Shown here: piece after piece, positions 6,182 to 31,419 of the stretch | How positions within the stretch are numbered: the stretch's first letter is position 1 | Layout of the letters: each line of letters starts with the position of its first letter | Source: Candidatus Poribacteria bacterium | Lineage (GTDB): Bacteria > Poribacteria > WGA-4E > GCA-2687025 | Length of the DNA: 35,082 nucleotides | Reading direction: 5' to 3' | NCBI GenBank assembly: GCA_016866785.1 | Contig: VGLH01000029.1 | Span: 1-35,082, forward strand | Notes under the pieces: generated by a model | Told to the model about the DNA's origin: nothing | Seen by the model: the letters and a program-made list of their open reading frames with translations, nothing else | Databases searched by the model: none | Translations under genes and position numbers: made by a program

Positions 6182-6232
6182 GGGCTGTTGTCACCTCTGA
6201 TCGGATGCGAGCCGAGCGCGACGGGCGCGCCC

Positions 6233-9200
6233 CTACCCCTTTGTGATGACTTCGTCGAGGTTCAGGAGGATCTGCGCAATCATCGTCCATGTCGCCAGCA
6301 GGACGGGATCGGCGTCCTTCGGCGGCTCCGCGCCGACGGACACGATCTTACGCGCCGCTTCCACGTCGGCGGCTGCTTGGGTTCCGCACGACGCCAACGC
6401 CTCGGTCAGCGTGGCGAGCTCATCCTTGCCGGGCTTCCGACTGGTCGCCGTCTCGAAGGCGTAGCGGATGCGCTCGGGGTCGGTCGCGCCACCCTCCTTC
6501 AGGATACGCTCGGCGAACGCCCGCGCCGCCTCGAAGTATTGCGGATCGTTCATGAGCATGAGCGCTTGAAGGGGCGTGTTCGTCCGCTCACGGCGCACGG
6601 CGCACGACTCGCGCGAAGGCGCGTCGAGGATGCTCATCTCCGGTGGCGGCGACGTGCGCTTCCAGAACGTGTAGAGGCTCCGCCGATGGACCTTGTCGGA
6701 ACCCTCATCCGCCTTGAAGTTCGCCGTGTTCGACCCGACGTAGCCGACGGCTTCCCAGAGCCCGTCCGGCTGCGGCGGCTTCACGCTGGGACCCCCAATC
6801 TCCGGCTGCAGCAGCCCGCTCAGCGCCAACGCCTGATCGCGCACGGCTTCGGCGTCGAGGCGGAACCGGGGACCCCGCGCGTAGAGCCGGTTCCTCGGGT
6901 CCTTCTCGATGAGCTCCGGCGTCGCTGACGACGACTGGCGATAGGTCGCCGAGGTCACCATCAGTCGGAGCATGTGCTTCACGTCCCATCCCGATTGCAT
7001 GAACTCCGTCGCCAGCCAGTCGAGTAGTTCGGGATGCGACGGCTGATCGCCTTGGCTCCCGAAGTCCTCGGACGTGCGGACGATCCCGCGACCGAAGACC
7101 TGCTGCCATAGCCGGTTCACGGTGACGCGCGATGTCAGCGGGTGATCCTCGCGGAGCAGCCAGCGAGCCAGCGCCAATCGGTCTTGGGGAACCGACCGGT
7201 CGATGGGCGGCAGGACGCCGGGGGTTCCCGCTTCGACCGGGTCGCCCGGTTGATCGTACTGCCCGCGCTTGAGGAGGCGCGCGGGACGACGCTCGCCGGT
7301 GCGTTCCTCCATGACGAGCGTCGTAGCGATTTGCGCGTCCAGCTCGTTTCTGCGGCGCTGAATGCGGCTTCGTTCCATAAGCCATCGGCGGGTCTGCGGG
7401 TCGCGCGTGATCTGCTCGCGGTAGTAGGTCGTCAGGCGCGTCGCCTGCTCAGGCGTCCGCGCGTCGGACGACAGGGCGGCGATGCTCACCACGTCCAGCG
7501 GCGGGATGGGATCACCCGCCTCGATGCCGAACGCGAGCCCGGAGCCGCCGATGTCGTTGACCAGCTTGATGACGAGCTCGTTCCCGCCCGACTGGAGAAG
7601 CGCCTGAACGCGGTCGCGCGACAGGCTCCCGTCGGTGTTGGGACCGCGCGTCCAGACCTCCTGGCGGTTCACCCAGACGCGGACGGCATCCTCCGAGTCG
7701 ATAGTCAGCGTGACGCGCTGCCGCGTGTCCGACTGGATGTTGCGGTAGAGATAGGTCGCCGCGTGATCGGCGCTCTGGACGGCATGGAAGTCGCCGTCGA
7801 GCCAGTCTTCGTGGCGAATCCACTTGCGCGACTGGTCGCCGACCTTGAACTCCTGCCCCAGGTTGACGCCCTTGCCCTCCGGCTCGAACGGCTCATAGAA
7901 GGCGGCGATGGCGTCGTACCCCGCGAAGGGCCCGACTGAATGCCAGTCGGACAACGCGACGGGCGAACCGAGCGCTCCAAGACGCGCGTTGGTCGCCTCG
8001 AAGCGGAACCGACCGAACTGATGCTGGGCATGCGGCGACTCGAACTTGAGCCGGAGGCGCAGGCGCGTTGGCGCGTCGCCGCCGAAGGGCTCCGCCGCGA
8101 CGAAGACTGCCTGGCGATCCTCCTTGCGCTGATGCGCGCCGGTCGCCCAGCCGGTTTCCGCCTTGCCGTCGAGGACGTAGGCGATGGCGAAGTCGCCGCC
8201 GCCCGCCTGTTCGTAGTCCGCCCACGCCTGCACGAAGCGGAGTCTCGTCCACTCGTCGGGCTTCTCAGCGGAGGGCGTCTCCGCCTCGAACTCCGTGAGG
8301 ACGGCGTTTCCGCCGCTGCTACGTCCCGACGAGCCGTTGGGCAGCGACGCGTCGTTCAGCGCGTCGAGCCGAAGCGCCGAGAACCGTCCGGCGGGCACCT
8401 CGACGGTGACCTCGTAGGTCTCCTTCGCCGGGTTCTCGCCGCTCGCCAGGAGCGAGCCGTCGTCGAGCTTGTCGAGCTTCGCTCCGCCCTTCGAGACGAA
8501 CTCCTGCGGCGTGAGCAGCGTCCAGCTCGGAAGGCTTGCGGACCAAAGAGATTGCGCGGCTTCGAGGGGCGCGTTGGCGGAACGGATCCGACCGTTGACC
8601 TCGGCGATCTGTCCGTCGAACGCTGTCAGACCCGCCGTCTGCTCGTCCGTGGGAACCTTGACGACGGGCGCGGGGTTCTTAGTGTTCCCGTCCATCGCCT
8701 TCTCGGTCAGGTTGTTGAAGTAGGCGAAGAGTCCGTAGAACTCCTTCTGCGTCAGCGGATCGTACTTGTGGTCGTGGCACTGGGCGCACCCGGAGGTGAG
8801 CCCCAGCCAGACGGTCGAGGTCGTGTTCACCCGATCGACGGCGTATCGGACGTAGTACTCCTCGTCGATGGAGCCGCCTTCGCTGGTCGAGACGTTGCAG
8901 CGGTTGAACCCGCTGGCGATCTTCTGGGCGAGCGTCGCATCGGGCAGCAGGTCTCCTGCGAGCTGTTCAACCGTGAACTGATCGAAGGGCATGTTCTCGT
9001 TGAGCGCGCCAATGACCCAGTCCCGGTAGGGCCACATCTCGCGGTAGTTGTCGAGGTGGAGCCCGTGGGTGTCGCCGTAGCGCGCGGCGTCGAGCCAGTA
9101 GCGGGCGAGATGTTCGCCGTATTGCGGCTTGGCGAGGTAGTGTTCGACGAGGCGTTCGTAGGCGTCCGGCTTGTCATCGGCGAGGAAGCTGTTGACCTCC

Positions 9201-9829
9201 TCGCGGGTCGGCGGCAAGCCCGTCAGGTCGAGCGCGAGGCGGCGGATGAGCGTCCGGCGGTCCGCTTCAGGGGACGGTTTCAGCCCTTCCGCGTCGAGCC
9301 GGTTCAGGATGAACTGATCGATGGGGTTCCGCACTCGGGACGCGTCCTGAACGGTGGGAGGCTCGGGACGGACGGGCGCCTGGAACGCCCAATGCTCCGA
9401 CCACTGCGCGCCGGTCTCGATCCATTTGCGGATGGTCGCGATCTGTTCCTCGGAGAGGGTCTTGTTGGTCGACGCGGGGGGCATGTGGATATCGGCGTCG
9501 GTCGCCGTGATCCGCTGGTAGAGGTAGCTTTTGTCGGGGTAGCCCGGCACGACGATCTGGCGCTCCGGGTCGAAGACAGCCGATTTCGAGTCGAGGCGCA
9601 GGTCGGCTCGTCGGGCAGCGCCGTCGGGTCCGTGGCACGCGAAGCACGTGTCGGAGAGAATGGGTCGGACGTCTCGGTTGAAATCGACGAGGCGGTTTCG
9701 GGCGTCGGCGGCGCGCGACGTGACGCCGTGGGCGGCGCTCAGAGCCATCAGGAGGAACATCGCCCAACGCGACGAAGCGGCAGAACGCGGCTTCGGCGGG
9801 GGTCCGCCGACGAGCTGTATCATCTCCAT
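6233..9829 (-). CDS. Planctomycete-type cytochrome c / DUF1549 / DUF1553 protein
   Basis: The 1198-residue protein has an N-terminal export signal (hydrophobic MFLLMALSAAHG, likely cleavage near residue 40). Then comes a planctomycete cytochrome c (PSCyt1) domain with heme motif CFACH at 62-66 and a possible axial-ligand region HMPP near 116. A DUF1549 domain (about 168-372) holds a second CxxCH, CAQCHDHKYDP at 348-352. A middle part of about 380-880 includes a discoidin-like segment (GNAVLTEFEAE, LDGKAETGWATG) and a beta-rich segment (VTLTIDSEDAVRVWVN). DUF1553 follows, from about 890 (SRVTVNRLWQQVFGRGIV, TSATYRQSS, ANTPLQALMLMNDP-like RTNTPLQALMLMNDP). It is probably a periplasmic multi-domain heme protein; the reaction is unknown. 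It is the first gene of the DUF1501/NHL operon. The start could also be the ATG at 9823. Confidence 0.92.
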   Translation of the reverse strand: MEMIQLVGGPPPKPRSAASSRWAMFLLMALSAAHGVTSRAADARNRLVDFNRDVRPILSDTCFACHGPDGAARRADLRLDSKSAVFDPERQIVVPGYPDKSYLYQRITATDADIHMPPASTNKTLSEEQIATIRKWIETGAQWSEHWAFQAPVRPEPPTVQDASRVRNPIDQFILNRLDAEGLKPSPEADRRTLIRRLALDLTGLPPTREEVNSFLADDKPDAYERLVEHYLAKPQYGEHLARYWLDAARYGDTHGLHLDNYREMWPYRDWVIGALNENMPFDQFTVEQLAGDLLPDATLAQKIASGFNRCNVSTSEGGSIDEEYYVRYAVDRVNTTSTVWLGLTSGCAQCHDHKYDPLTQKEFYGLFAYFNNLTEKAMDGNTKNPAPVVKVPTDEQTAGLTAFDGQIAEVNGRIRSANAPLEAAQSLWSASLPSWTLLTPQEFVSKGGAKLDKLDDGSLLASGENPAKETYEVTVEVPAGRFSALRLDALNDASLPNGSSGRSSGGNAVLTEFEAETPSAEKPDEWTRLRFVQAWADYEQAGGGDFAIAYVLDGKAETGWATGAHQRKEDRQAVFVAAEPFGGDAPTRLRLRLKFESPHAQHQFGRFRFEATNARLGALGSPVALSDWHSVGPFAGYDAIAAFYEPFEPEGKGVNLGQEFKVGDQSRKWIRHEDWLDGDFHAVQSADHAATYLYRNIQSDTRQRVTLTIDSEDAVRVWVNRQEVWTRGPNTDGSLSRDRVQALLQSGGNELVIKLVNDIGGSGLAFGIEAGDPIPPLDVVSIAALSSDARTPEQATRLTTYYREQITRDPQTRRWLMERSRIQRRRNELDAQIATTLVMEERTGERRPARLLKRGQYDQPGDPVEAGTPGVLPPIDRSVPQDRLALARWLLREDHPLTSRVTVNRLWQQVFGRGIVRTSEDFGSQGDQPSHPELLDWLATEFMQSGWDVKHMLRLMVTSATYRQSSSATPELIEKDPRNRLYARGPRFRLDAEAVRDQALALSGLLQPEIGGPSVKPPQPDGLWEAVGYVGSNTANFKADEGSDKVHRRSLYTFWKRTSPPPEMSILDAPSRESCAVRRERTNTPLQALMLMNDPQYFEAARAFAERILKEGGATDPERIRYAFETATSRKPGKDELATLTEALASCGTQAAADVEAARKIVSVGAEPPKDADPVLLATWTMIAQILLNLDEVITKG

Positions 9830-17439: not shown

Positions 17440-17532
17440 AACCCGCTCCGCAGCCGGCTCCGAGCGTCACGGAACTCAGTACGGAAAGCATCCGAGGCGC
17501 GCGATCCTTGAGATGCCTTCGGCTGTCCCGTG

Positions 17533-17548
17533 TGGCACACTGGTAGCA
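17533..17548 (+). promoter_or_regulatory. Possible sigma-54 promoter upstream of pyrG
   Basis: TGGCAC (17533-17538) and TAGCA (17544-17548) have the GG and GC dinucleotides spaced 12 bases apart, as in -24/-12 promoters. The -12 part has TAGCA where TTGCA is preferred. A start site near 17559 would give a 30-base leader before the pyrG ATG. No activator-binding site or sigma-54 gene is visible, so this is a pattern match only. Confidence 0.3.
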
Positions 17549-17589
17549 GCGAGCGAACCGTTGCCGAAGACCTGCAGCGCGAGGAACCC

Positions 17590-19209
17590 ATGAAGCACAA
17601 GATGATCTTCGTGACGGGCGGCGTCGTGTCCTCCATCGGGAAGGGCATTACCACTGCCGCTCTGGGCAGGTTGCTGACCAATCGCGGCTATCGCGTCCAC
17701 GCGCTCAAGATCGATCCGTACATCAACGTCGACGCCGGCACGATGAACCCCTTCCAGCACGGCGAGGTGTTCGTCACCAACGACGGCGCGGAGACCGACC
17801 TGGACCTGGGCAACTACGAGCGGTTCCTGGGAACCGAGTTGTCGGGGCTCTCCAACTTCACCAGCGGAGCCGTCTACCGCTCCGTCATCGAGAAGGAACG
17901 CGAGGGGAAGTTCCTCGGTGAGACCGTCCAGCTCATCCCGCATATCACCAACGAGATCAAGGATCGCATCTACCGATTGGCTCGTGAAAGCCGCGCTGAC
18001 GTGCTCATCTGCGAGGTGGGCGGAACCATCGGCGACTTCGAGACACCGCCGTTCGTCGAGGCGATGCGCCAGGTCCGCATGGAGATGGGCATTCCGAACA
18101 CACTCCTGATGCATGTGACGCTCGTGGTCTCCGTCGCCTGGGGCGAGGTGAAGACGAAGCCGACGCAGCACAGCGTCCGCGAACTCCTCTCGCTGGGCGT
18201 TCAGCCGGACATGCTCATCTGCCGGACGAAGCAGCCGCTGTCCCGCTCCATCCGCGAGAAGATCTCGCAGTCGTGCGGCGTTCCACTCAACGCGGTCATC
18301 GAGGCGTGCGACGTCGATTGCATCGAGGAGATTCCGCTGATCCTCGAAGAGCAGGGCGTCGGCGAGCTCGTGGTCGAGCGCCTCAGCCTGCCTGCGACGC
18401 ATATCGCATCCGAAGACTGGGCGCGGATGGTACACCGGCTCAAGAACCCGGAGGGACACGCGCGGATCGCCGTCGTCGGGAAGTACACGACCCACGGCGA
18501 CGCCTATCTGAGCGTGCAGGAAGCCCTGAAGCACGGCGGCATCGCCAACGACGCCCAAGTCGAGATCAAGTGGGTCGATTCGGAATCGCTCACCGGAGAA
18601 AGCGATCTGGACGCCGCGTTCGCCGATGTGAGTGGCATCCTGGTTCCCGGCGGATACGGGATTCGCGGGATCGAGGGCATGATCGTCGCCGCCCGCCACG
18701 CCCGCGAGCGCCGAATCCCCTACCTGGGGCTCTGCCTCGGCATGCAGTGCATGGTGATCGAGTTCGCCCGAAACGTGGCAGGTCTCGAACGCGCCAACAG
18801 CCGAGAGTTCGACGAAGAGACGCCGCATCCCGTCGTCGATCTCATGGAGACGCAGGTTCGCCGCACCGAAAAGGGCGGAACCCAGCGGCTGGGCATCTAC
18901 CCGTGCGTGCTTTCCGACGAGAACACCATCGCCTACCAGGGCTACCGCCAGCCGATCATCGTCGAGCGGCATCGCCATCGCTACGAAGTGAACAACACCT
19001 ATCGCCAGCGGCTCCAGGCGCACGGGATCGTGTGGAGCGGGCTCTCTCCCGGCGAAGACCTCGTCGAGATCGCGGAGTTGGCGGACCACCCGCACATGCT
19101 GGGATGCCAGTTCCATCCGGAGTTTCGCTCGAAGCCACTGGAACCGCATCCGCTCTTCGTCGGATTCGTGCGAGCCGCGCTGGGGTACGTTCCCGCCAAG
19201 GAAGGCTGA
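17590..19209 (+). CDS. pyrG: CTP synthase
   Basis: CTP synthase converts UTP to CTP using ATP and glutamine-derived ammonia, the last step of pyrimidine nucleotide synthesis. I choose the start ATG 17590 with GAGGAA just upstream, giving 539 residues, the usual length. The synthetase domain opens FVTGGVVSSIGKGITTAALG and contains DPYINVDAGTMNPFQHGEVF. The glutamine amidotransferase domain has GGYGIRGIEGMI, the nucleophile Cys382 in LGLCLGMQ, and His509/Glu511 in CQFHPEF. The gene is complete and ordinary. It is followed after 22 bp by the giant secreted protein, so read-through is likely. CTP is also the co-substrate of KdsB, encoded on the other strand nearby. Confidence 0.98.
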   Translation: MKHKMIFVTGGVVSSIGKGITTAALGRLLTNRGYRVHALKIDPYINVDAGTMNPFQHGEVFVTNDGAETDLDLGNYERFLGTELSGLSNFTSGAVYRSVIEKEREGKFLGETVQLIPHITNEIKDRIYRLARESRADVLICEVGGTIGDFETPPFVEAMRQVRMEMGIPNTLLMHVTLVVSVAWGEVKTKPTQHSVRELLSLGVQPDMLICRTKQPLSRSIREKISQSCGVPLNAVIEACDVDCIEEIPLILEEQGVGELVVERLSLPATHIASEDWARMVHRLKNPEGHARIAVVGKYTTHGDAYLSVQEALKHGGIANDAQVEIKWVDSESLTGESDLDAAFADVSGILVPGGYGIRGIEGMIVAARHARERRIPYLGLCLGMQCMVIEFARNVAGLERANSREFDEETPHPVVDLMETQVRRTEKGGTQRLGIYPCVLSDENTIAYQGYRQPIIVERHRHRYEVNNTYRQRLQAHGIVWSGLSPGEDLVEIAELADHPHMLGCQFHPEFRSKPLEPHPLFVGFVRAALGYVPAKEG

Positions 19210-19231: not shown

Positions 19232-22200
19232 ATGAACCCGATGTCTGACCGCCCGCACACGGCGTCGGCGCGGCTGACCAACGCTCGACTCCAGACTCGG
19301 TATCGCCATCGACAACCTCCGAATCGCTGCGCCGCGCTCGTTGCGCTGACGTTGCTTCTCGCCGTGCACGCCGGAGCCGCGTTCGCCGCGCCGGACACGG
19401 CGATCCTGAGCGGGCCCGCCGGACTCACCGACCGCGCCGACGTCGTCTTCTGGTGGGCAGGACTCTCCGACGACCCCGCCGCGCCGGTGCGAGGCTACCG
19501 GTACAGCCTCGACGGGTCTGCCCCCGTCTTCACCGAATCCTCGACAATCGCCCTCTACGCGTTGCCTCAAGGCGAGCACCGGTTCCGCGTCGCGGCGGTG
19601 AACGCCCGGCTGGAAGAGGACCCGACGCCCGCCGAAAGCCTGTTCACCGTCGGAGTGGCGTTCAGCGAGGAAGCCGAGTCGAACGACTTCGCCGTCGCCG
19701 CCAACGACGCCTCATCGGGCATCGAGGTGCGAGGCATCTCCGGCGGAGCGGTCGATATCGACTTCTTCAAGGTGGCGCTCTTAGGCGCGCCGAACCAGGT
19801 GACCGTCACCTTCCGCCGACCCGTCGGGGGGCTCGGCAAGACGACGGTTCAGCTCTATCGCGGCGATCCAGCCCTGAACGTCCTGCTGGGAACCGCGACG
19901 GCGTCGCCGGAGAATAGCCAGCGGGTCACGTTCACCGTCGGAACATCGCCTTCCGTCCACTACCTGCGCGTGCAGTCCGACGCGGCGGAGGCGGTCGCGT
20001 CGCAATACGTCGTCACGGTCACCGGCGCGGCGCTGGCTCCGGCGTACCACCGCGACATCGAGCCGAACGACTCCGAGGCGTCCGCGAACGTGCGCGAGCT
20101 GACCGCCGCCTCGTCGAAGCTCGGCATCGTCGGTTCCGCTGCCAGCGCGACTGATGTGGACTGGTACCGCATCCGCGCCAACATCACCACGACCGCCCTG
20201 CTGCGGCTGACCGTGTTCCGACCCGGTTCCGCTGGCGAGACGAAGGTCAGCGTCTACGCAGGGGCTCCGCCGACGACGGATCGGCAGATCGCCCGGCTTA
20301 CCGCTTCGGGAGCCAACGGGCAGTTCGCGACGTTCGAGACGGGCGTCACGCTGAGCGATGTCCTCGTGCGCGTCGAGCACCCCTCGACGCTGGCGGCGGA
20401 GCCGTACTGGCTGTTCTTCTCGCTGTCGGAGCCTGCAGGCGACGTCGAGGTGGAACCCAACGGAGCCGATCCGCGCGTCAACCCGCGTTCGCCAACGCGA
20501 TTGGCGCTCGACCGCCCGATGGACGGCACGAGCTGGGACGGCGGCGCGGACACCGACTGGTACGCCGTCGAAGCGCCTCGTGCCGGCGTGTTGACGATCC
20601 GGTTCACGCGCCCATCCGGCACGGGCTTGACGCGGGTGCGCGCGTTCAGCCCGAACTTCGCGCAGATCGGCGAGGCAACGGCTTCCGTCGCCGCGAGCCA
20701 GACGGCGACACTGAGCCTGTCCGTGAGCGCCGGAACCCACCATGTCGAGCTCACGCCGACCGGTGAGTCTTCAGCCGCCGGGTACCGGCTCAACGCCACG
20801 CTCGGCGCGGCGGGCGTGCTCGACGTGAGCCATTCCGCGACTCGACCGCTGCGGCGCGGCGAGGTGCTCCGCGTCACCGCGACGGCTCCGCCCAGGGGCG
20901 CGGCGAGTTTCGCCATCGGGACGGCGCGCGAAGGGATACCACTCTTCGACGACGGCGCGCACGAGGACGGTTCCGCGTCCGACGGCGTCTATTCGGGAAC
21001 CTACAGCGTCGGCGCGTCGGACGACCTGCGCGATCAGCCGGTGGTCGTCACTGTGCGCGACGAGACGGGCGGCGTCAGCACCAAGACGGCGTCGCAGACC
21101 GTGACGCTCGACGGTGTTCCCCCGGCTCCCATCACGGCTCTGACGGCGAGCGACCGGCCCGACGACGACGGCTATTGGCTGCGTCTGTCGTGGTCGGCAT
21201 CGCGGGCGGCGGACCTGGCAACCTATCGGGTCTACATCTCGCCGACGCCCATCCCAGCGACGTCAGGACTCGCGCCAGCGCTTTCGACGCACCTGACATC
21301 GCTGGACGTGCCCGTGTCGCAGAACGGCGTGGACACGTACATCGCCGTCACGGCAGTCGATCTCGCCGGGAACGAGTCAGCGTTGGGCGGTCTGTCGGTA
21401 TTCGGACCCATCCGCGCGCTGGACAACCGGCGTCCCGATCCGGTGTCGGGCGTGACCATCGCCGACACGCCCTACGACTACGGCGGATCGGTCACGGCGC
21501 GGTGGGACGCCGCGCTCGTCGAAGACTTCCAGGAGTACCGCGTCTATGTGGGCCCGGAGCCCATCGCATCGACCGAGGGACGGGTTCCCGGGGCGCGAGT
21601 CGCGAGCCAACGGGCGACCGTCGCGGACATCGGTTCCCTGCCTGTGGGCGCGCCGGTCTACGTCGCGGTGACGGTCGTCGATCTGTCGGGGAACGAGTCC
21701 GCCATCGGGCCCGGTTCGACGGCGGGACCCGCGACCCCAGCCGCGAACGCGACGCCGGACGCATCGCCGCTGCGCTTGACGGGACCCAGCGGCATCGTGC
21801 GGGGAACGTCCGCGACCTTCCTGTGGAACCGGTACGCGGCGGACGCGGGCGACCCGCCGTCGCGGTTCAGCGTCCAGTTGGATGGACGAGCTTCCGAGTT
21901 GACATCGCTGACTTCAGCGATGTTCTACGGTCTGTCGGCGGGCGAGCACACCGTCCGCGTCGGGATTCCGGGCGCGGCGACGGCGTCGCAGGCGACCTTC
22001 CGGGTCGAGCCCACGACCGTGCGGGAACGCGAACCGAACGAGGCGGAATCGACGGCGACCGAACTGACGCCGAACGTGACCTTCGCCGGTATCGCCGAAG
22101 CCGCTGGCGATCTGTACCGCCTGAACATCGAGAACCCCCGCGTCCTCGCCTTGACCGCCGAATCGTCGGGCGAAGCGACCGTCACGCTCTATCGCGGCAT

Positions 22201-25200
22201 CCGCTCGCCGGATACGGTGGCGTTCCAGAGCGTCTTGACGGCGGCGGCTCCGCGCCGCACGGCAACCGTCGCCGTGGCTCCGGGCGTCCACTGGATTCAT
22301 GTGACCGGCAGCGGCGATTACGCGCTCTTCGCGTCCCTGCTCGACCTGGGAGCCGGACGCGCCGCCGAGATGGAGCCCAACGACGTCGCCGACCGCGCGC
22401 TGACGCTCGATCTGTCCGCTCCGGCGCTGGTGCGCGGTTCGTCTCAGACGGCTCCCGACCGCGACTGGTTCGCGGTTCCCGTGCTTGCGGCGTCGCGGCT
22501 GGAGGTCGCGTCCTACCGTCCGGCGGGCTCCGGCACGACGACTTGGCGGCTCTACCGGGGCGACGCGCCGGTTGCCGAGTGGAAGCTGGACGGCGCGCGC
22601 CTGTCGAACCGAATCGCCATCGGCGCGGCTGCCGACCTCTATTTCGTGGAGATTGTCGGCGAGCAAGCGAGCGCGAGCGAGTACGAGGCACGCATCGCCT
22701 TGACGCCCGGCGCGGCGGGCATGGAGATCGAGTCGAACGACGTGATCGCGCGCGCGACGCCCCTGCCTCTGACGACGGCGTTCGCGGGCGACGCCTGGAA
22801 GTCGGGCGATGTCGATGCCTATTCCGTTCAGATCATTCGCCGGGGGACGGTCGCCGTCGGTTACGAAGCCGGCATGGGAACCGGAACCGTCGAGGTGCAT
22901 ATCCGCAACGCGGGGGGCGTGTCGCTGGCGTCGTCGCCGGCGAACCCATCGAATGGCGGCAGGACGTCCGTCCAGGCGGATGCCGTGCCAGGAGCCTACT
23001 ACCTTTCGGTGGAACCCCAGGGCTCCGCGACGGACTCCTACCGGACATGGGCGTTCTTCGTCGAGGAGTTGAGCCATTCGGCGACGCGTCCGCTCCGGTC
23101 GGGCGATCCTCTCGATTTGCGCGTCGTCTGGGTTCCGGGCGGTTCGGCGGCGGTTCGTCTGATCGACGTGGACGGCGCGGCGGTCGGTTTGCCGCTGACG
23201 CTGGGCGATGCGTCCAAGGCGGGCGTCTACACGGGTCGAGTGACGATCCCGGCTAGCGCCAAGGGCCCGCTGACCGTGCGCGCGGAACTGGCGATAAGCG
23301 CGATGCAAGCCACGGTCGCCTTTGCGCAGCCCGTCGCCGTGGACGCCTCGGAGCCCCAGGTCACGTCGGTCTCCATCGACGACGTTGCCGCCTTCGGGTT
23401 GGGAGCGGCCATCCACGTGCGCGCCGTGGCGGAGAAGGGCTTGTCGGCGTCCTTCGCGATCCTTCGACCCGATGGCACGCCGGTTCGCGCGGGTCTTCCG
23501 TTGGTGGACGACGGGACGAAGGGAGACGCCCAGGCGAACGACGGCGTCTATACGAGCGCGTACACGACGGTCGCGGGCGATGACGTACGCGGGGGCTCCG
23601 TCGCGGCGACGTTCCGGCGGGGCACGGGCCCGTCCGTCGTGGTTCCCGCGCCGATGCGCTTGACCATCGACACAGTTCCCCCACCGGGAGTTACCGGCGT
23701 CGCCGCGCAGGACGTTCCGGGCGACGAAGGCGGCTTCCTGCGCGTGACGTGGGACGCCAGCGCCGTCGAGGACTTCGCGCGGTACGCCGTCTATGCGGCG
23801 CAGACGCCCGTTGTGACGCTCTCCCGGCTGACGCCCATCGCGACGAGCGCCCAGCGGGATGCCACCTCGCTGATCGTCGAAGCGGAGAGCGGGGTTCCGT
23901 TTTACTCGGCGGTCGTCGCGGTCGATCTCGCCGGGAACGCCTCGCCGTTGATCGGCGGGCCGAAGGGCTCCGTCTCCGGCGCGGCGACCGCTCTGGACAA
24001 TCTCCCACCGGAGCCCGTTTCGGGCGTTCAGGCGGCGGACCGGCGCGGAGATCGCGGCGGCGTCTTGACCGTTCGATGGTCTCCCAGTCTCGCGCCGGAC
24101 TTCGGCGAGTACCGCATCCACCTGTCGGACCGACCTTTCGCGGCGGGAGTCGGCGGAACCATCGCCGGGCGCGTCCCGGTCGTCGGCGTCACGGTCGCCG
24201 ATATCGGAACGGCGGCGGATGGCGTCGATTGGTACGTCGCCGTGACGGCGGCTGACGCGGCTGGGAACGAGTCGCCAATCGGCGGTTCCAGCGTGTCGGG
24301 TCCCGTTCGGAGCGCCGCCGATGCGCCGCCCGGAAGCGACCTGGGAGCCGCGCTGTTGGCAGGACCCGTCGGGACGGCGCGTCAGGGCTCGGTCGTCGCG
24401 CGATGGAGCGCGTTCGCGCCGGATGGCTCAGCGCCGGGCTGGCGCGTGCGCCTGGACGACGGTCCCCCGCAACTTGCCGCCGTCAACGAACTTCTGTTTC
24501 CGAACCTGTCGGCGGGTTCCCATTCGCTCACGGTGGAACCCTCGGATGGGAGCCTTCCCGCAACCGTGCGAACCTTCGCCGTCGAGCCGCTGGCGCTTGA
24601 GGAGAGCGAGCCGAACGACCTCGGCGCTGCCGCGACCGCGTTGCCGGTTGGCATTCGCATGAACGGGACGACGGACGCGGCTGGCGATGTCGATTGGTAT
24701 CGCGTCGTCGTGTCGGAACCGGCGGCGCTGTCACTCCATCTGTCGCGCGGCAGCCCCAACGAGTCCGTCGTGACGCTCTTCCCGGCGTTCGCGCTGGGAG
24801 ACTTGGAGCGGATCGCGCGCGTGTCGGCGCGAGGCGGCGAATCGCGCGCGACGACGCTCGGAGTGGACGCGGGAGAGTACCTCGTCCGTGTGGACGGTGC
24901 TCCGGGGCAGTACCGTCTCGCCGTTGCCCTGAGCGCGCGCTTGCCCGGCTATGTGTGGGACGTCGAGCCGAACGGCGACCCGCTGCGCGCCACCCCGGTC
25001 GGGTCGGGGACCGCCGAGATCGCCGGATCGGCGAACTCCGCCGATGACATAGACTGGTATCGCTTCGACGTGGATCGAGCTCCGGGCACCGTCTTCGAGC
25101 TTCGGCTTCTGCGAGTCGGTTCCGCCGAGCTCTACCAGGGCGCTCCAGATGCTTCGAGCGCTCCCATCGCCGCCCTGACGAGTTCCGGTGGTTCGGTCGC

Positions 25201-28200
25201 AACGCTCCGAACTGGAGTCGCCGCGTCCAGTCTGTACCTGCGAGTGGCGGGCGTCGGCTCGGTTCCGTACGCGATCCAGCCTGCCATCGTCGCTCTGCCG
25301 GAGGGGGTTCAGTGGGAGGAAGAGCAGAACGGCGTCGAGGCGTTGGCGACGCGCGTGCCTCTCACGACACGCGAAGTGCGCGGGACGCTCCGTTCCGGCG
25401 AATCCGACTGGTTCCGCGTCACCGTGCCCGACGGGGCACTGCGGCTGCTGACCTGGCGTCCGACGGCTCCGGTCGGGTCGGTGGGCAAGGCGCGCGCGCT
25501 GCGTTCCTTCCCGTCCGCGTTGCCGATCGACGTGGGCGAGGTCGCACTGGGAGACGTCGCCTCGGGGGGTCTGACGATCCCGACGACCGGCGGGACGTAT
25601 CTCTTCGAGATGTCCGGCAACACCGGCGGCGATTTCGAGTACGCGGTCTCCGTGTCTCTGGAACCGGCTGCGGACGGCGCAGACTGGGAGCTGGAACCCA
25701 ACGGCGCAGCGCCTCGCGCCGGAGCTCTGCGACTCGGACGCCCGATGCTCGGGTCGATTTCCAGCGCGTCCGATGAGGACTGGTTCGTCGTGAACCTGGA
25801 TCCGGCACTGGAGGGAGCCCTGCTGCTGTCTCTGTCAGCGCCCACCGCGACGGGCTCGGTCAAGATGCAGGTGTTGAGTCCGGGTCTGGTGAGCCTCGCC
25901 GAGACCCTCGCCAGCCCGTCGGATGCGATGTCTGCAATCGTGCAGCTACCGTCTCCCGGTTCCGCCTACTACATGCGGATCAGCGGCTCCGGTCGCGGCG
26001 GGTATCGAGTCGGAGCCCTGCGCGTGCGTCGGGGTTCCCACGATGGGGTTCGTCCGTTGGGCGTCGGCGGAGTCCTGACGGCGCGCATCGAGGGCGATCC
26101 CGGATGGAGCGTGTCGGCGGAGCTCGGCTCGGGCTCCGTCGTGTTCCCGCTCGCTGCGACCTCCGGCGGTATCTACGTCGGGACGCACACGGTTCGGAGC
26201 GGAGAGAACGCCGCCGCCAGCGAGCTTCGCGCGGTCATTCGGACGGACAGCGGGATCGCCGCGTCGCTGACCTTGCCGCCCGTTGTGACCATCGACACGG
26301 CGGCGCCGGAGATCAAGGACGTGCAGCACAACGCGGCGAAGGCGCTCCGAGCCGACGATGTGCTGGTCGTGCGCGCGCGGACGGAGCCGCTCGCCGTCGT
26401 GACGATGGAGTTGGCTGCCGAAGGGTTCCGCGCGGTCGCGTCGCTATACGACGACGGCAAACACGAAGACGGCGGAGCCAACGACGGCGAGTACGCCGGA
26501 ACCTATCGCGTCGCGCTGGGAGACCAGGCGGCGGGGGCGACGGTCACCGTGGCTGCGACGGACGACCTGGGCAACCGCGCGACGCGTTCGGCGCTTCGGA
26601 AAGTGGATATCGACACGACGCCTCCGCGTATCGCGTCCATCGAACACGACGCCCGGAGCGTTCTGGCGTCCGGCGACCGAATGACGGTGCGCATCCGGGG
26701 CGAGGTCGGAGCCGTCGGGGAGTTCGCCATCGCCGGCGTTCGCGAGCATATCGCCCTTTCGGACGAGGGCACGCAGGGCGACGAAGTCGCGAATGACGGC
26801 GTCTACACGGGCTTCGTCGTCATCCGCGAGGGAGACAACGCGCTGAACGCGCTCGTGTCGGCGACGTTGACAGATCGCGCCGGGAACGTATCGCGCATCG
26901 TCGCGCCGCAGCCAGTCAGCATCGACACGACGAAACCGAGCATCAAGTCCGTGACGCACAATGCGACCAGATCCCTGCACGCCGGCGACAAGCTGATCGT
27001 CCGCCTCGTCGGGGAACCGGAGGGAACCGCGACGCTGGACATCGGGACGGCGTTGACGGGGCTTCCCCTGCTGGACGACGGCGCGGGCGACGACGTTGCA
27101 GCGGGAGACGGCATCTACACGGCGAGCTACATCGTCCGGGAGACGGATTCGGTCGTCGAAGCGCTCGTGACGGCGACACTGACGGATCGCAACGGAAACT
27201 CCGAGACGCGGAGCGCGTCGCGTCGCGTTTCGCTGGACGCGATCCCGCCGGAGCCGATCGTGAACTTGGTCGCCATCGATGTGCCTCAAGACGAAGGCGG
27301 GCGGATTCGGCTGACCTGGCAGCCGACGACCGACGTGCGCGACTTCCTGCGCTACCAGGTTTACCGGCAGTCGGCTCCGATCCGAAGCACGAAGGGGATG
27401 GTTCCCGTCGTGGCGGATCTCCGTGCGCCCGAAAAGACGACGCTCGACGTGGACGTGCCGGTGAACAATGCGGACCTCTGGTTCGCCGTCACGGCGGTCG
27501 ATGCGGCTCTCAACGAGAGCGCGCTGTCGCCGACGGGCGGCTCGACGGCGGGCCCGGTGCGGGCGACGGATGACATCGCGCCCGCGTCGGTCGTCGGCGT
27601 GAGCGCGTCGGACGCCCCGGATGACAACGGCTTGGCGCTGCTCGTCCGCTGGACGCCGTCCAACGCCGAACGCGATTTCGCCCACTACGCGGTCTACATT
27701 GGGCGCGAGCCGCTCGCCGGTGCGTCGCTGCAAGATGCGAAGCCGGCGGCGGTCTTCCCGGATCGTGCGATTCCGCAGGGCATCGTTCCGGTTCCCGAAG
27801 ACGGGATGGACCTCTACGTGGCGGTGGTCGCCGCCGACGTGAACGGGAACCGGTCGGCGATGGTCGCCGGGTCGTTGGCGGGTCCGGTGCAGTCGCACGA
27901 CGACATCCGCCCCGATCCCGTTGCGGGCGTCTCCGCGTCGGATTCGCCCAGCGACCGAGGCGGCGAGCTCGTCGTCTCGTGGAAACCCGACGAGGACGCC
28001 ACGATCCGCACGTACGAGGTCTACGTGACGACAGAACCGCGCGTTCTGCTGCGGTCGTCGGATGTCCCGGCGTTGGTCGTGGACCGCGCATCCCTGGCGG
28101 ACCCGAAGAAGCCGGTCGCGCTGGTTCCGGTTCCGCGTGACGACGTGCCGTACTATGTCGCGCTCGCCGCCGTGGACGGCGGCAGGAATCGCTCTCTGCT

Positions 28201-28966
28201 CGGCGAAACATCCGTGGCGGGCCCGGTGCGTTCGATCCAGAACATCCTGTCCGATCAGCGGGAATGGACCGTTCGAGGCGGACTGGACGCGCGCACGAGC
28301 GTCACGGTTCCGCAGTCCATCGCCCGACCGGGGATGCGGATCGACATTCTGACGGTGACGGATTCGGCTTGGCTGCGCCGGATCGAGGAGGCGAATCTCT
28401 CGCCGGACGAGGCGAACATCGATCCTGAGCCGGACACGCTCCTGCAGAGCACGACGCGGTGGTTCTCGTCGGATACCGAGGCGTTCCCACAGCCGATCAC
28501 GGTCACGATGGGGTTCCCGGCGCTCGACCCTCCAGACCTGGCGCAGGAGCTGCGGGTCTTCCGGCTGAACGCCTCGGCGGTTCCCGCGAGATGGGAGTTG
28601 GTGTCCGGCGTGCAGCGAGTCGATGTGAACCAGGGCGTCGTGACGGCGCAGATGCGGACGCTGGGCGTGCTGCGGGTGGCGCGGCTGGTGCTGCCTCGGC
28701 GGCTGGACCGCGTCGTGCTCTACCCGAACCCATTTTCACCGGAGACGCACGGCGTCTTGACGTTCCGCAACCTGACCGCCGACGCGGTCGTGGACATCTT
28801 CACCCTGGATGCCCGACGTGTGCGGACGCTCACGAGCGCCAACCCGGGCACGGCAACCTGGGACGGGCGCGACGGGAGCGGACATCTCGTCGCGACCGGG
28901 CTCTACATCTATCTCGTTCGGGGAGCCAACGCCCGACGTACGGGGCAGATCTTCGTGGCGCGCTGA
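19232..28966 (+). CDS. Giant modular secreted protein (3244 aa): Ig-like, PPC, anchor-X-like and FN3 repeats, C-terminal sorting-like domain
   Basis: Export is indicated by a long basic start and a hydrophobic core (LVALTLLLAVHAGAAFA, cleavage near residue 53). Three blocks follow. Block A: Ig-like about 55-140, three PPC-type repeats (from 147, 275 and 406), one anchor-X-like repeat (533), two FN3 (628, 733). Block B: Ig-like 847, PPC 932, 1047 and 1166, anchor-X 1280 and 1377, FN3 1482 and 1591. Block C: Ig-like 1707, PPC 1791, 1911, 2029 and 2153, anchor-X 2269, 2364, 2470 and 2573, FN3 2671, 2783 and 2893. PPC repeats show EPND/EPNG then DxDWY; anchor-X repeats show HNATRxL...DDGxxxD...DGxYxG. 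Residues 3162-3244 (VVLYPNPFSPE...TWDGRDGSG...ATGLYIYLV) match FlgD-Ig/type A sorting domains. No enzyme domain is visible, so a surface adhesin or scaffold is likely. GGAGAAGGG precedes the start. Confidence 0.9.
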   Translation: MNPMSDRPHTASARLTNARLQTRYRHRQPPNRCAALVALTLLLAVHAGAAFAAPDTAILSGPAGLTDRADVVFWWAGLSDDPAAPVRGYRYSLDGSAPVFTESSTIALYALPQGEHRFRVAAVNARLEEDPTPAESLFTVGVAFSEEAESNDFAVAANDASSGIEVRGISGGAVDIDFFKVALLGAPNQVTVTFRRPVGGLGKTTVQLYRGDPALNVLLGTATASPENSQRVTFTVGTSPSVHYLRVQSDAAEAVASQYVVTVTGAALAPAYHRDIEPNDSEASANVRELTAASSKLGIVGSAASATDVDWYRIRANITTTALLRLTVFRPGSAGETKVSVYAGAPPTTDRQIARLTASGANGQFATFETGVTLSDVLVRVEHPSTLAAEPYWLFFSLSEPAGDVEVEPNGADPRVNPRSPTRLALDRPMDGTSWDGGADTDWYAVEAPRAGVLTIRFTRPSGTGLTRVRAFSPNFAQIGEATASVAASQTATLSLSVSAGTHHVELTPTGESSAAGYRLNATLGAAGVLDVSHSATRPLRRGEVLRVTATAPPRGAASFAIGTAREGIPLFDDGAHEDGSASDGVYSGTYSVGASDDLRDQPVVVTVRDETGGVSTKTASQTVTLDGVPPAPITALTASDRPDDDGYWLRLSWSASRAADLATYRVYISPTPIPATSGLAPALSTHLTSLDVPVSQNGVDTYIAVTAVDLAGNESALGGLSVFGPIRALDNRRPDPVSGVTIADTPYDYGGSVTARWDAALVEDFQEYRVYVGPEPIASTEGRVPGARVASQRATVADIGSLPVGAPVYVAVTVVDLSGNESAIGPGSTAGPATPAANATPDASPLRLTGPSGIVRGTSATFLWNRYAADAGDPPSRFSVQLDGRASELTSLTSAMFYGLSAGEHTVRVGIPGAATASQATFRVEPTTVREREPNEAESTATELTPNVTFAGIAEAAGDLYRLNIENPRVLALTAESSGEATVTLYRGIRSPDTVAFQSVLTAAAPRRTATVAVAPGVHWIHVTGSGDYALFASLLDLGAGRAAEMEPNDVADRALTLDLSAPALVRGSSQTAPDRDWFAVPVLAASRLEVASYRPAGSGTTTWRLYRGDAPVAEWKLDGARLSNRIAIGAAADLYFVEIVGEQASASEYEARIALTPGAAGMEIESNDVIARATPLPLTTAFAGDAWKSGDVDAYSVQIIRRGTVAVGYEAGMGTGTVEVHIRNAGGVSLASSPANPSNGGRTSVQADAVPGAYYLSVEPQGSATDSYRTWAFFVEELSHSATRPLRSGDPLDLRVVWVPGGSAAVRLIDVDGAAVGLPLTLGDASKAGVYTGRVTIPASAKGPLTVRAELAISAMQATVAFAQPVAVDASEPQVTSVSIDDVAAFGLGAAIHVRAVAEKGLSASFAILRPDGTPVRAGLPLVDDGTKGDAQANDGVYTSAYTTVAGDDVRGGSVAATFRRGTGPSVVVPAPMRLTIDTVPPPGVTGVAAQDVPGDEGGFLRVTWDASAVEDFARYAVYAAQTPVVTLSRLTPIATSAQRDATSLIVEAESGVPFYSAVVAVDLAGNASPLIGGPKGSVSGAATALDNLPPEPVSGVQAADRRGDRGGVLTVRWSPSLAPDFGEYRIHLSDRPFAAGVGGTIAGRVPVVGVTVADIGTAADGVDWYVAVTAADAAGNESPIGGSSVSGPVRSAADAPPGSDLGAALLAGPVGTARQGSVVARWSAFAPDGSAPGWRVRLDDGPPQLAAVNELLFPNLSAGSHSLTVEPSDGSLPATVRTFAVEPLALEESEPNDLGAAATALPVGIRMNGTTDAAGDVDWYRVVVSEPAALSLHLSRGSPNESVVTLFPAFALGDLERIARVSARGGESRATTLGVDAGEYLVRVDGAPGQYRLAVALSARLPGYVWDVEPNGDPLRATPVGSGTAEIAGSANSADDIDWYRFDVDRAPGTVFELRLLRVGSAELYQGAPDASSAPIAALTSSGGSVATLRTGVAASSLYLRVAGVGSVPYAIQPAIVALPEGVQWEEEQNGVEALATRVPLTTREVRGTLRSGESDWFRVTVPDGALRLLTWRPTAPVGSVGKARALRSFPSALPIDVGEVALGDVASGGLTIPTTGGTYLFEMSGNTGGDFEYAVSVSLEPAADGADWELEPNGAAPRAGALRLGRPMLGSISSASDEDWFVVNLDPALEGALLLSLSAPTATGSVKMQVLSPGLVSLAETLASPSDAMSAIVQLPSPGSAYYMRISGSGRGGYRVGALRVRRGSHDGVRPLGVGGVLTARIEGDPGWSVSAELGSGSVVFPLAATSGGIYVGTHTVRSGENAAASELRAVIRTDSGIAASLTLPPVVTIDTAAPEIKDVQHNAAKALRADDVLVVRARTEPLAVVTMELAAEGFRAVASLYDDGKHEDGGANDGEYAGTYRVALGDQAAGATVTVAATDDLGNRATRSALRKVDIDTTPPRIASIEHDARSVLASGDRMTVRIRGEVGAVGEFAIAGVREHIALSDEGTQGDEVANDGVYTGFVVIREGDNALNALVSATLTDRAGNVSRIVAPQPVSIDTTKPSIKSVTHNATRSLHAGDKLIVRLVGEPEGTATLDIGTALTGLPLLDDGAGDDVAAGDGIYTASYIVRETDSVVEALVTATLTDRNGNSETRSASRRVSLDAIPPEPIVNLVAIDVPQDEGGRIRLTWQPTTDVRDFLRYQVYRQSAPIRSTKGMVPVVADLRAPEKTTLDVDVPVNNADLWFAVTAVDAALNESALSPTGGSTAGPVRATDDIAPASVVGVSASDAPDDNGLALLVRWTPSNAERDFAHYAVYIGREPLAGASLQDAKPAAVFPDRAIPQGIVPVPEDGMDLYVAVVAADVNGNRSAMVAGSLAGPVQSHDDIRPDPVAGVSASDSPSDRGGELVVSWKPDEDATIRTYEVYVTTEPRVLLRSSDVPALVVDRASLADPKKPVALVPVPRDDVPYYVALAAVDGGRNRSLLGETSVAGPVRSIQNILSDQREWTVRGGLDARTSVTVPQSIARPGMRIDILTVTDSAWLRRIEEANLSPDEANIDPEPDTLLQSTTRWFSSDTEAFPQPITVTMGFPALDPPDLAQELRVFRLNASAVPARWELVSGVQRVDVNQGVVTAQMRTLGVLRVARLVLPRRLDRVVLYPNPFSPETHGVLTFRNLTADAVVDIFTLDARRVRTLTSANPGTATWDGRDGSGHLVATGLYIYLVRGANARRTGQIFVAR

Positions 28967-28977
28967 GGAGCCGACGG

Positions 28978-29991
28978 ATGTCAACCCGAGCGATCCTACG
29001 TTACGCCCTGGTGTGCGCGATGGCGCTGACCGCGTTGAACCTGCGCGCGTCGGGGCGTGTCGGCGGCGCGTCGTTCGCGCTGAGCGCCGGGGCGCGCGCC
29101 GAGTCGATGGGCGGGGCGTTCGTTGCCGTCGCGGACGACGTATCGACGCTCTACTGGAACCCTGGCGGACTCGGGCTGGTGCGGGGTTCCCAGTTGACCG
29201 GCGTCCATACGGAATGGATCGGCGGCGTCCGCTACGAGTGGGTCGGGTTCGTCCAGCCCATCGGCAGGCTGGCGACGGTCGGGATCGGCGGCAAACTGCT
29301 GACCGGCGGCGATGTCCCACGTACCGTGATGACGCTGGGGGGCTACGCCGGCGAAGGAGTCTTCCGCTATTCGGCTCGACACGCGCAGATCGCGTTCGGC
29401 TCGACGGAGATCCGCAGCTTCCGGTTCGGCGGCGGGGTCGAGCTGATGCGCGAAGGGCTGGACATCTCCGGTTCGTCCGACGACGAGAGCCAGAGCGCCC
29501 GCAGCGGGACGACCCATGTGGGAGCGATCTACCAGACGCCGGTGAGCGGACTCCGTGTCGGAGCGGCGCTGCGGAACCTGGGAGGCTCGGCGTCGCTGCA
29601 CGGAGATTCGTCGCCGCTGCCGCGAACCCTCCAGGTCGGAGCCGCGTACACGCGACGGATTGAGCCCGTGGCTTCCGAGCAGCTTCCGGTGGAGCTGGCG
29701 ACGACGGACACGGCGAAGCCCTCGGCGGCGTCGGGCGTGTTGACGGCATCCACCGACCTTCTCTCGACGCGGGGCGAATCGCCGGCTTTGCGCGCGGGGC
29801 TGGAGTACCGGTTCAGCAACGGTTTGTCCGCCCGGGCGGGATATCGGACCGATTCGGCGTTCGATGCCGTCTCGCGGCTGAGCGGCGGACTCGGCTACGC
29901 GACGGACACGTACCAGGTGGACTACGCCTTCCTCCCCGTCGGCGATCTGGGGAACGCCCACCGCGTCGCCTTCACGCTGCTCTTTCGCTAG
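28978..29991 (+). CDS. PorV/PorQ-family (UPF0164-like) outer-membrane protein
   Basis: I choose ATG 28978, seven bases after GAGGAG, giving 337 residues with a signal peptide (MSTRAILRYALVCAMALTAL, ending near ASG). The mature N-terminus carries the family signature ARAESMGGAFVAVADDVSTLYWNPGGL. Amphipathic strands typical of a FadL-like barrel follow, ending in an aromatic residue before the C-terminal Arg (HRVAFTLLFR). In Bacteroidota, PorV shuttles type IX secretion cargo to the attachment machinery, and PorQ-like relatives occur widely in FCB and candidate phyla. The gene follows the giant protein by 11 bp. That protein ends in a type-IX-like sorting domain, so a dedicated export or anchoring role is an attractive inference. 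No other type IX gene is in the window. Confidence 0.82.
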   Translation: MSTRAILRYALVCAMALTALNLRASGRVGGASFALSAGARAESMGGAFVAVADDVSTLYWNPGGLGLVRGSQLTGVHTEWIGGVRYEWVGFVQPIGRLATVGIGGKLLTGGDVPRTVMTLGGYAGEGVFRYSARHAQIAFGSTEIRSFRFGGGVELMREGLDISGSSDDESQSARSGTTHVGAIYQTPVSGLRVGAALRNLGGSASLHGDSSPLPRTLQVGAAYTRRIEPVASEQLPVELATTDTAKPSAASGVLTASTDLLSTRGESPALRAGLEYRFSNGLSARAGYRTDSAFDAVSRLSGGLGYATDTYQVDYAFLPVGDLGNAHRVAFTLLFR

Positions 29992-30211: not shown

Positions 30212-31003
30212 ATGACGCGTCCTACCATTCGTCTTGCTGTCGGAATCACGCTTCTGTTCGCGATGCAGGCGTCGTCCTCGGCGAGGGAGGTCGCCGGATT
30301 GGTACTCGCGTTGCCGTTCGGCGAGGGTAAAGGGGCGACGGTCGCCGACGGGTCGGGCAACGGCAACGACGGGAAGATCAAAGGCGGCGTCAAGTGGACG
30401 ACGGGCAAGTACGGCGGCGGGTTGCAGTTCGACGGGAACGACGGCGTCGTCGAGGTTCCCGACAGCAAGTCGCTCCAGTTCACCGACGGACTGACGGTCG
30501 CCGTGTGGATCAAGCCGACGCTCAAGGGCGATGAGTGGCAGCTTCTCGGGTCGAAGGGAGCCGACGCCAAAGAGTTCTTCGAGGTTCTCCTGAGTCCGAA
30601 CGGGTTCCTGTGGATGGGATGGATGTTCCAGAACGCCCAGCGAATCGTGCCGGCGCAGAGCCCGAAGGAGGTGAAGCCTGACGTGTGGCAGCACGTCGCC
30701 GTCGCGTGGGACCCGAAGCAGTTCTGGACGGTCTATCTCGACGGGGAGCCGCTCATCGAATATCCGAAGCAGGACGACAAGCTCGTCCCCAACACCGATC
30801 CCGTGCTCATCGGCACGGAGCTCAACCTGAAGCGGTACTACAACGGCGTCATGGACGACTGGGCGCTGTTCAATCGCGGGCTGACCCAGAAGGAGATCAA
30901 GTCCGTGATGGGCGGACTCGACGCGCTGCTGCCGGTCGATCCGCTCGGGCGCTCCGCGACGACGTGGGGGCGCCTGAAGGCGGGCAGGGGTCCGAGAGCC
31001 TAG
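30212..31003 (+). CDS. Secreted LamG/concanavalin-like protein, paralogue of the 16681 protein
   Basis: The 263-residue protein starts after a good ribosome-binding site (GGAAGGAG, about 30199-30206) with the signal peptide MTRPTIRLAVGITLLFAMQASSSA. One LamG jelly roll follows: LPFGEGKGATVADGSGNGND, GKYGGGLQFDG, VAVWIKPTLKG, VWQHVAVAWDPKQFWTVYLDG and NGVMDDWALFNRGLTQKEIKS. The last residues, LLPVDPLGRSATTWGRLKAG, repeat the tail seen at the end of the 16681 protein. A TATATA box at 30155-30160 lies in the 220-bp gap upstream, but its -35 partner is poor. The stop codon TAG shares the tetramer CTAG (31000-31003) with the stop of the convergent DUF2283 gene. Confidence 0.87.
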   Translation: MTRPTIRLAVGITLLFAMQASSSAREVAGLVLALPFGEGKGATVADGSGNGNDGKIKGGVKWTTGKYGGGLQFDGNDGVVEVPDSKSLQFTDGLTVAVWIKPTLKGDEWQLLGSKGADAKEFFEVLLSPNGFLWMGWMFQNAQRIVPAQSPKEVKPDVWQHVAVAWDPKQFWTVYLDGEPLIEYPKQDDKLVPNTDPVLIGTELNLKRYYNGVMDDWALFNRGLTQKEIKSVMGGLDALLPVDPLGRSATTWGRLKAGRGPRA

Positions 31004-31304: not shown

Positions 31305-31390
31305 CTCGTCATTCCCGCGCGCCCCGCCTTCGCGGGGCCAGGAAGCGGGAATCCAGAACCCTGGGCTCCCGCTTTCGCGGGAGCGACGAG
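31305..31390. repeat. REP-like palindromic repeat (CGTCATTCCCGCG family)
   Basis: The 86-bp unit begins CTCGTCATTCCCGC and ends GCGGGAGCGACGAG; the ends pair with two mismatches. Inside are two perfect 7-bp hairpins, GCCCCGC/GCGGGGC (31321-31338, loop CTTC) and CTCCCGC/GCGGGAG (31366-31383, loop TTTC), with a CCAG/CTGG stem between. The wording CGTCATTCCCGCG...GCGGGAATCCAG...CCCGCTTTCGCGGGA is that of a dispersed intergenic repeat seen in many bacteria. It separates the AbiGi gene from the DUF2283 gene and could act as a terminator for either. Confidence 0.8.
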
Positions 31391-31419
31391 GCCCCACCAG
31401 GGTAACAGCAGCGTACTGC

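Follow-up and report, generated by a model that had tools for sequence, protein, structure and literature searches.

Analysis of a 35,082-nucleotide stretch of DNA (the window, which makes up contig 29 in a Candidatus Poribacteria draft genome of 4.35 Mb, G000) indicates that a giant protein encoded on it is probably a T9SS-exported surface rod that is held by its own PorV/PorQ-family barrel, the gene for which lies just downstream. Most of the functional information on the giant is carried by its C-terminus and by this co-inherited PorV-family gene. A first-pass annotation had described the repeat anatomy, which stands up to residue 3004, but had left out the ZU5-like residues 3005-3157, the sorting-domain-like residues 3158-3244 and the downstream PorV-family gene.

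The giant gene (19232..28966, plus strand, as are all features given with coordinate ranges of this form) is an open frame of 3,244 codons with no internal stop that encodes a cysteine-free protein of 3,244 residues. It is preceded at a distance of 22 bp by pyrG (17530..19209), which encodes CTP synthase (Pfam CTP_synth_N, 387 bits). Since pyrG also adjoins the giant gene upstream in G001, G003, G004, G005 and in G007, a member of another class, it appears to be an ancient neighbour. The protein begins with a leader (19232..19387) that contains a hydrophobic stretch and an AxA motif and that, judged by eye, resembles a signal peptide. A self-BLAST of the giant returned the trivial match alone, and its domains were then compared by profiles and pairwise domain scores. 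Repeat profiles made from the giant itself, and subsequently from its orthologs, place domains that are contiguous end to end in three blocks. Block 1 (19388..21748, residues 53-839) consists of an Ig domain (residues 53-133), three PPC, one anchor-X and two FN3 domains; block 2 (21752..24322, residues 841-1697) of an Ig domain (residues 841-929), three PPC, two anchor-X and two FN3 domains; and block 3 (24332..28243, residues 1701-3004) of an Ig domain (residues 1701-1788), four PPC, four anchor-X and three FN3 domains. Both the order Ig, PPC, anchor-X, FN3 and the copy numbers 3-1-2, 3-2-2 and 4-4-3 given by the first-pass annotation are thus recovered exactly with profiles of the giant and its orthologs. 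Curated models see less of this structure, with Pfam detecting PPC once and NCBIfam detecting choice_anch_X in five stretches, and a search of the whole protein against the PDB gave no match. No enzyme family was matched in Pfam and NCBIfam scans, in agreement with the earlier statement that the giant has no enzyme domain.

Beyond the repeats are two further domains. Residues 3005-3157 (28244..28702) form a ZU5-like domain for which an AlphaFold model (pLDDT 87) has ankyrin ZU5 as its best Foldseek match (4d8o, E 1.2e-4). Residues 3158-3244 (28703..28963) contain the motif YPNPF and, according to models and to a profile search of the PDB, resemble a T9SS type A sorting domain (CTD). For example, the CTD profile matches PorZ (5m11, E 1.1e-6) and also PorU (6za2), and the CTD of the window protein scores 42.9 bits with NF052228, the model of the PorZ C-terminus. 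In NCBIfam, the models for PorZ and for PorU both match the CTD in 12 of 12 aligned family members. The predicted structure is a beta-sandwich (pLDDT 87) with Foldseek matches that include PorZ 5m11 and the NucA CTD (8glk_D, TMt 0.69). The window CTD scores 17.6 bits against TIGR04183, below the cut-off of 23, which is missed also by the orthologs of G011 (22.9), G004 (20.6) and G025 (17.1 bits) and is passed by those of G016 (28.3), G007 (26.8) and G014 (24.1). Because the cut-off is missed in the window and passed in three orthologs, we term the domain type-A-like; by these scores it is not a certified TIGR04183 member.

The gene that begins 11 bp after the giant gene (28978..29991) encodes a predicted outer-membrane barrel of 337 residues, the proposed dedicated carrier and anchor. 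It passes the cut-off of the PorV/PorQ family model NF033709 (123.7 bits, cut-off 90) and remains below the equivalog cut-offs for both PorV (NF033710, 35.3 versus 250 bits) and PorQ (NF033711, 47.3 versus 220 bits). On these scores it would therefore be a family member that is neither PorV nor PorQ itself. A Pfam scan found no PorP_SprF match in the barrel, with UPF0164 as the sole match. PorV (6h3i, E 7e-10) is the only strong solved relative of the barrel profile, and a structural model with a moderate pTM of 0.72 is FadL-like, with the PorV chains of the T9SS translocon 8gl6_F (5e-10) and 6h3i_F as the top Foldseek matches, followed by FadL/TodX.

The giant and the barrel are also inherited together. 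Giant orthologs with the same domain order were found by profiles in 16 of 85 Candidatus Poribacteria genomes, spread over 7 of 10 families. The PorV lineage to which the barrel belongs is present in 15 of the 16 giant-positive and in none of the 69 giant-negative genomes, with the caveat that absence from a draft genome can be an artefact. The one exception, G005, is a genome that is 61% complete and in which the contig with the giant gene stops short of the gene's 3' end. The 15 lineage members form one clade in the tree (support 1.00), and the best hits in giant-negative genomes sit in other paralog clades, in which giant-positive genomes are represented as well. One family, f8, accounts for 59 of the 69 giant-negative genomes and lacks both the giant and the barrel lineage. 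Mapped on the PyrG tree, presence requires three changes by Fitch parsimony, or four joint losses if it is ancestral, and with so few, clumped events a simple Fisher test overstates the co-occurrence. The barrel gene adjoins the giant in G000-G004 and in G011 and is unlinked or distant in the other genomes; thus, linkage alone fails to explain why the two occur together. Additionally, distances among giant tails and among the PorV proteins remain correlated after the PyrG distances are removed (partial r=0.78, Mantel p 2e-4). The giant and the barrel therefore co-evolve beyond the PyrG tree. The source genome also contains four more sorting-domain-like genes with a PorV-family gene directly downstream, one of which encodes a PorU-like C25 peptidase (C27:13593-18789; the others are at C1:96924-98306, C7:2345-3740 and on C9, L072:7767-10069), and pairing of cargo with carrier may be a general plan of this genome.

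Parts of the remaining T9SS machinery appear to be present in Poribacteria, as judged by model searches. A divergent SprA-like protein of about 2,200 residues is found in 69 of the 85 genomes. In the source genome its gene lies across the gap between two contigs, with the N-terminal 632 residues at the right end of C3 (L302) and the C-terminal 1,758 residues at the left end of C144 (L067), and these pieces match TIGR04189 weakly and SprA_N at 29.1 bits (cut-off 27). The poribacterial SprA profile gave no match in the PDB, solved SprA chains included, and is colinear with an over-cut-off SprA of G001, the one genome in which the TIGR04189 cut-off is met. That G001 protein (G001:C30:112-4146, L301; 508 bits) lies near the Bacteroidota model, unlike the divergent poribacterial SprA, and could reflect either gene transfer or contamination of the bin. 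The PorU model has about 40 hits in the source genome, most of which are CTDs only; two are PorU-like C25 peptidases that carry a CTD, the best stretch scoring 258.6 bits against a cut-off of 420. About a dozen PorV-family genes are present in the same genome, including a general one (C10) from a lineage that occurs widely in the phylum, also in genomes without the giant. For the GldL/GldM motor, model searches run with no positive control gave no convincing GldM match in the source genome and no credible GldL match across the 85 genomes.

Taken together, these observations suggest that the giant is a long extracellular rod whose 27 beta-sandwich-type domains form three blocks that were duplicated long ago. 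It would enter the periplasm through Sec and then cross the outer membrane after its CTD is read by the T9SS-like, SprA-like translocon. The rod would then be handed to its own barrel through binding of the CTD, and the barrel would anchor it at the cell surface rather than only shuttle it. Repeats of the PPC, Ig and FN3 types would be appropriate to an adhesin or a matrix scaffold, and the rod may act as an adhesin or a matrix-binding fibre. The first-pass annotation had viewed the chain as an extracellular fibre or ligand-binding scaffold without an enzyme; the absence of an enzyme is borne out, while the fibre or scaffold role is plausible and is contradicted by nothing in our data.

Two other readings of the C-terminus and the barrel have to be weighed against this one. 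The giant could be an ordinary T9SS cargo, with its CTD read by a general PorV and cut by a PorU-like sortase, the rod then being linked to LPS or released and the neighbouring barrel having some other task. Such an arrangement would follow the situation in Bacteroidota, where, according to a recent paper (PMC12618676), a single PorV recognises all type A CTDs, and the source genome does have the general PorV-family gene C10 as well as two PorU-like proteins. However, it leaves unexplained why the giant strictly co-occurs and co-evolves with one particular PorV lineage, even where the two genes are unlinked, and we therefore consider it unlikely. Less likely still, and in our judgement improbable, is that the C-terminal domain is no more than a structural, FlgD-Ig-like cap and that the giant exits by another route or stays periplasmic, with the adjacent barrel an accident of operon structure. 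The domain does resemble FlgD Ig-like domains (Pfam FlgD_ig, 17.2 bits, below the cut-off), and both the sub-threshold TIGR04183 score of the window CTD and the failure to find the motor genes (GldM in the source genome, GldL in the 85 genomes) are in keeping with a cap. Against it are the three orthologs that pass TIGR04183, the identity of the best solved relatives as the C-termini of PorZ and PorU, and the co-occurrence of the PorV lineage with the giant. Export by a T9SS and retention by a dedicated barrel is consequently the reading that we favour. A broader version of this reading is tentative, and we hold it to be possible rather than probable: Poribacteria would have a deeply divergent T9SS, perhaps with another source of power, that handles several type-A-like cargos, the giant included, each with a private, anchoring PorV-type carrier; such carriers would make up a third class beside the general PorV and PorP/SprF, ancestral to the phylum.

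The repeat region has a history of its own. Scans of viral contigs and a first scan of genome contigs with single-sequence queries found no relatives of the giant, and relatives were recovered with an alignment query; close relatives of its tail are 38-56% identical and come from Candidatus Poribacteria. Domains of different blocks match one another in order beyond what permuted orders give, both in the window protein (permutation test, p=0.005) and in G003 and G007 (p=0.0005 in each), and G009 also exceeds permutation. The same test gave no significant result for G024 or for G014, where the older block relationships are accordingly blurred. In trees, FN3 domains cluster by position across blocks and species. 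This positional grouping and the order-preserving similarity argue that the blocks are true duplicates and that the triplication is old, and they support the block-level duplication proposed in the first-pass annotation. The last block has the composition PPPXXXXFFF (three PPC, four anchor-X, three FN3) nearly everywhere, including in G007 of another class; both this 3-4-3 block and the three-block plan are phylum-wide.

Comparison among relatives is hard to reconcile with the idea of a growing series. Within the window protein alone the counts do rise along the chain, as they would if a block had been duplicated twice and each new block had gained domains, the last being the youngest and largest. 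However, the last block is the one that is conserved over the phylum and it is blocks 1 and 2 that vary. For example, block 2 has four anchor-X domains in G001, G002, G003 and G005 of the same family, and the two in the window (23063..23689) are therefore the remnant after a loss of two; the first of them resembles the first copy of the relatives (G001 excepted) and the second resembles their copies 2-4. Block 1 has one anchor-X in the family of the source genome, against three to five in those other families whose assemblies include this block. In block 3 the window protein has gained one PPC, the third in the block (25310..25678), which is private to the source genome: none of G001, G003, G004 and G005 has a PPC at the corresponding position. 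The fourth PPC of G001 arose independently, as a copy of the second PPC of that protein. The loss in block 2, the conserved last block and the private PPCs together mean that the rank of copy numbers along the chain is not a time series, and we regard stepwise growth as very improbable. The sequences instead point to later losses and gains with no steady growth.

The relatives differ in block number, with two, three or four blocks. The two-block protein of G004 has a chimeric first block: its Ig domain and first two PPC (PPC1, PPC2) come from block 1, whereas PPC3, the four anchor-X and the final FN3 come from block 2, a pattern that points to recombination between blocks with an in-frame deletion. 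An ancestral state of two blocks was considered and rejected because this protein joins block 1 and block 2 pieces. Four blocks are implied in G011 from two contigs with an exact 131-base end overlap. Repeat number thus moves in both directions, at least once via in-frame recombination between blocks. In G001 the coding sequence of the giant runs through several frames (L057, G001:C1:151000-170000), which would reflect either assembly errors or decay of the gene.

Several other features of the window and genome were noted. A LamG-domain protein (window 30212-31003) and small proteins from other parts of the genome (L064:1-810 and L065:1871-3418) share a similar short end motif, about GKAATTWAxLK, and it is possible that this ending is an unrecognised C-terminal signal. 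Downstream of the LamG gene, window 31310-31395 contains short palindromic GC-rich repeats of the CCCGCTTTCGCGGG type. Window 4685-9829 has a DUF1501 gene beside a PSCyt1/PSCyt2/PSD1 (DUF1549/DUF1553) gene, a pair that is usual in planctomycete-like bacteria and that occurs here in Poribacteria.

The arrangement of giant and barrel can be compared with characterized systems. In SprB-SprF and other type B CTD / PorP-SprF pairs of Flavobacterium johnsoniae, a downstream FadL-fold barrel has been shown or proposed to be a private carrier and anchor (PMC12618676, PMC9143113). The giant is similarly a large non-enzymatic protein with a C-terminal sorting domain and a barrel gene directly downstream; it differs in that its CTD is type-A-like, its barrel belongs to the PorV/PorQ family with no PorP_SprF match, and its phylum is Poribacteria. 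In the PorZ-PorQ and PorU-PorV pairs of Porphyromonas gingivalis, each CTD protein has a PorV/PorQ-family barrel of its own that keeps it on the cell surface (PMC5562754). Among solved CTDs, those of PorZ and PorU are nearest to that of the giant, and the barrel of the giant is of the same family, yet the giant is a repeat rod and neither a sortase nor a beta-propeller LPS-binding protein. A 2014 single-cell genome study reported that many repeat proteins of Poribacteria carry Por_Secre_tail (TIGR04183), but it detected none of the Por structural genes and left the export route open (PMC3909097). Our analysis concerns the same phylum and the same kind of CTD on repeat proteins; it differs in the SprA-like, PorU-like and PorV-family genes detected here and in the tie of one cargo, the giant, to one barrel.

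The locus offers a concrete candidate export route for poribacterial CTD cargo, comprising the cargo, a barrel, an SprA-like translocon and PorU-like sortases. The giant family also provides a comparative record of the loss, fusion and gain of repeat blocks in a giant surface protein. A cargo-specific PorV lineage, if true, would change the one-PorV rule for type A CTDs and would mean that type-A-like cargo, too, has acquired private carriers. These results suggest that in some bacteria a giant surface protein is provided with an exporter and anchor reserved for it alone.
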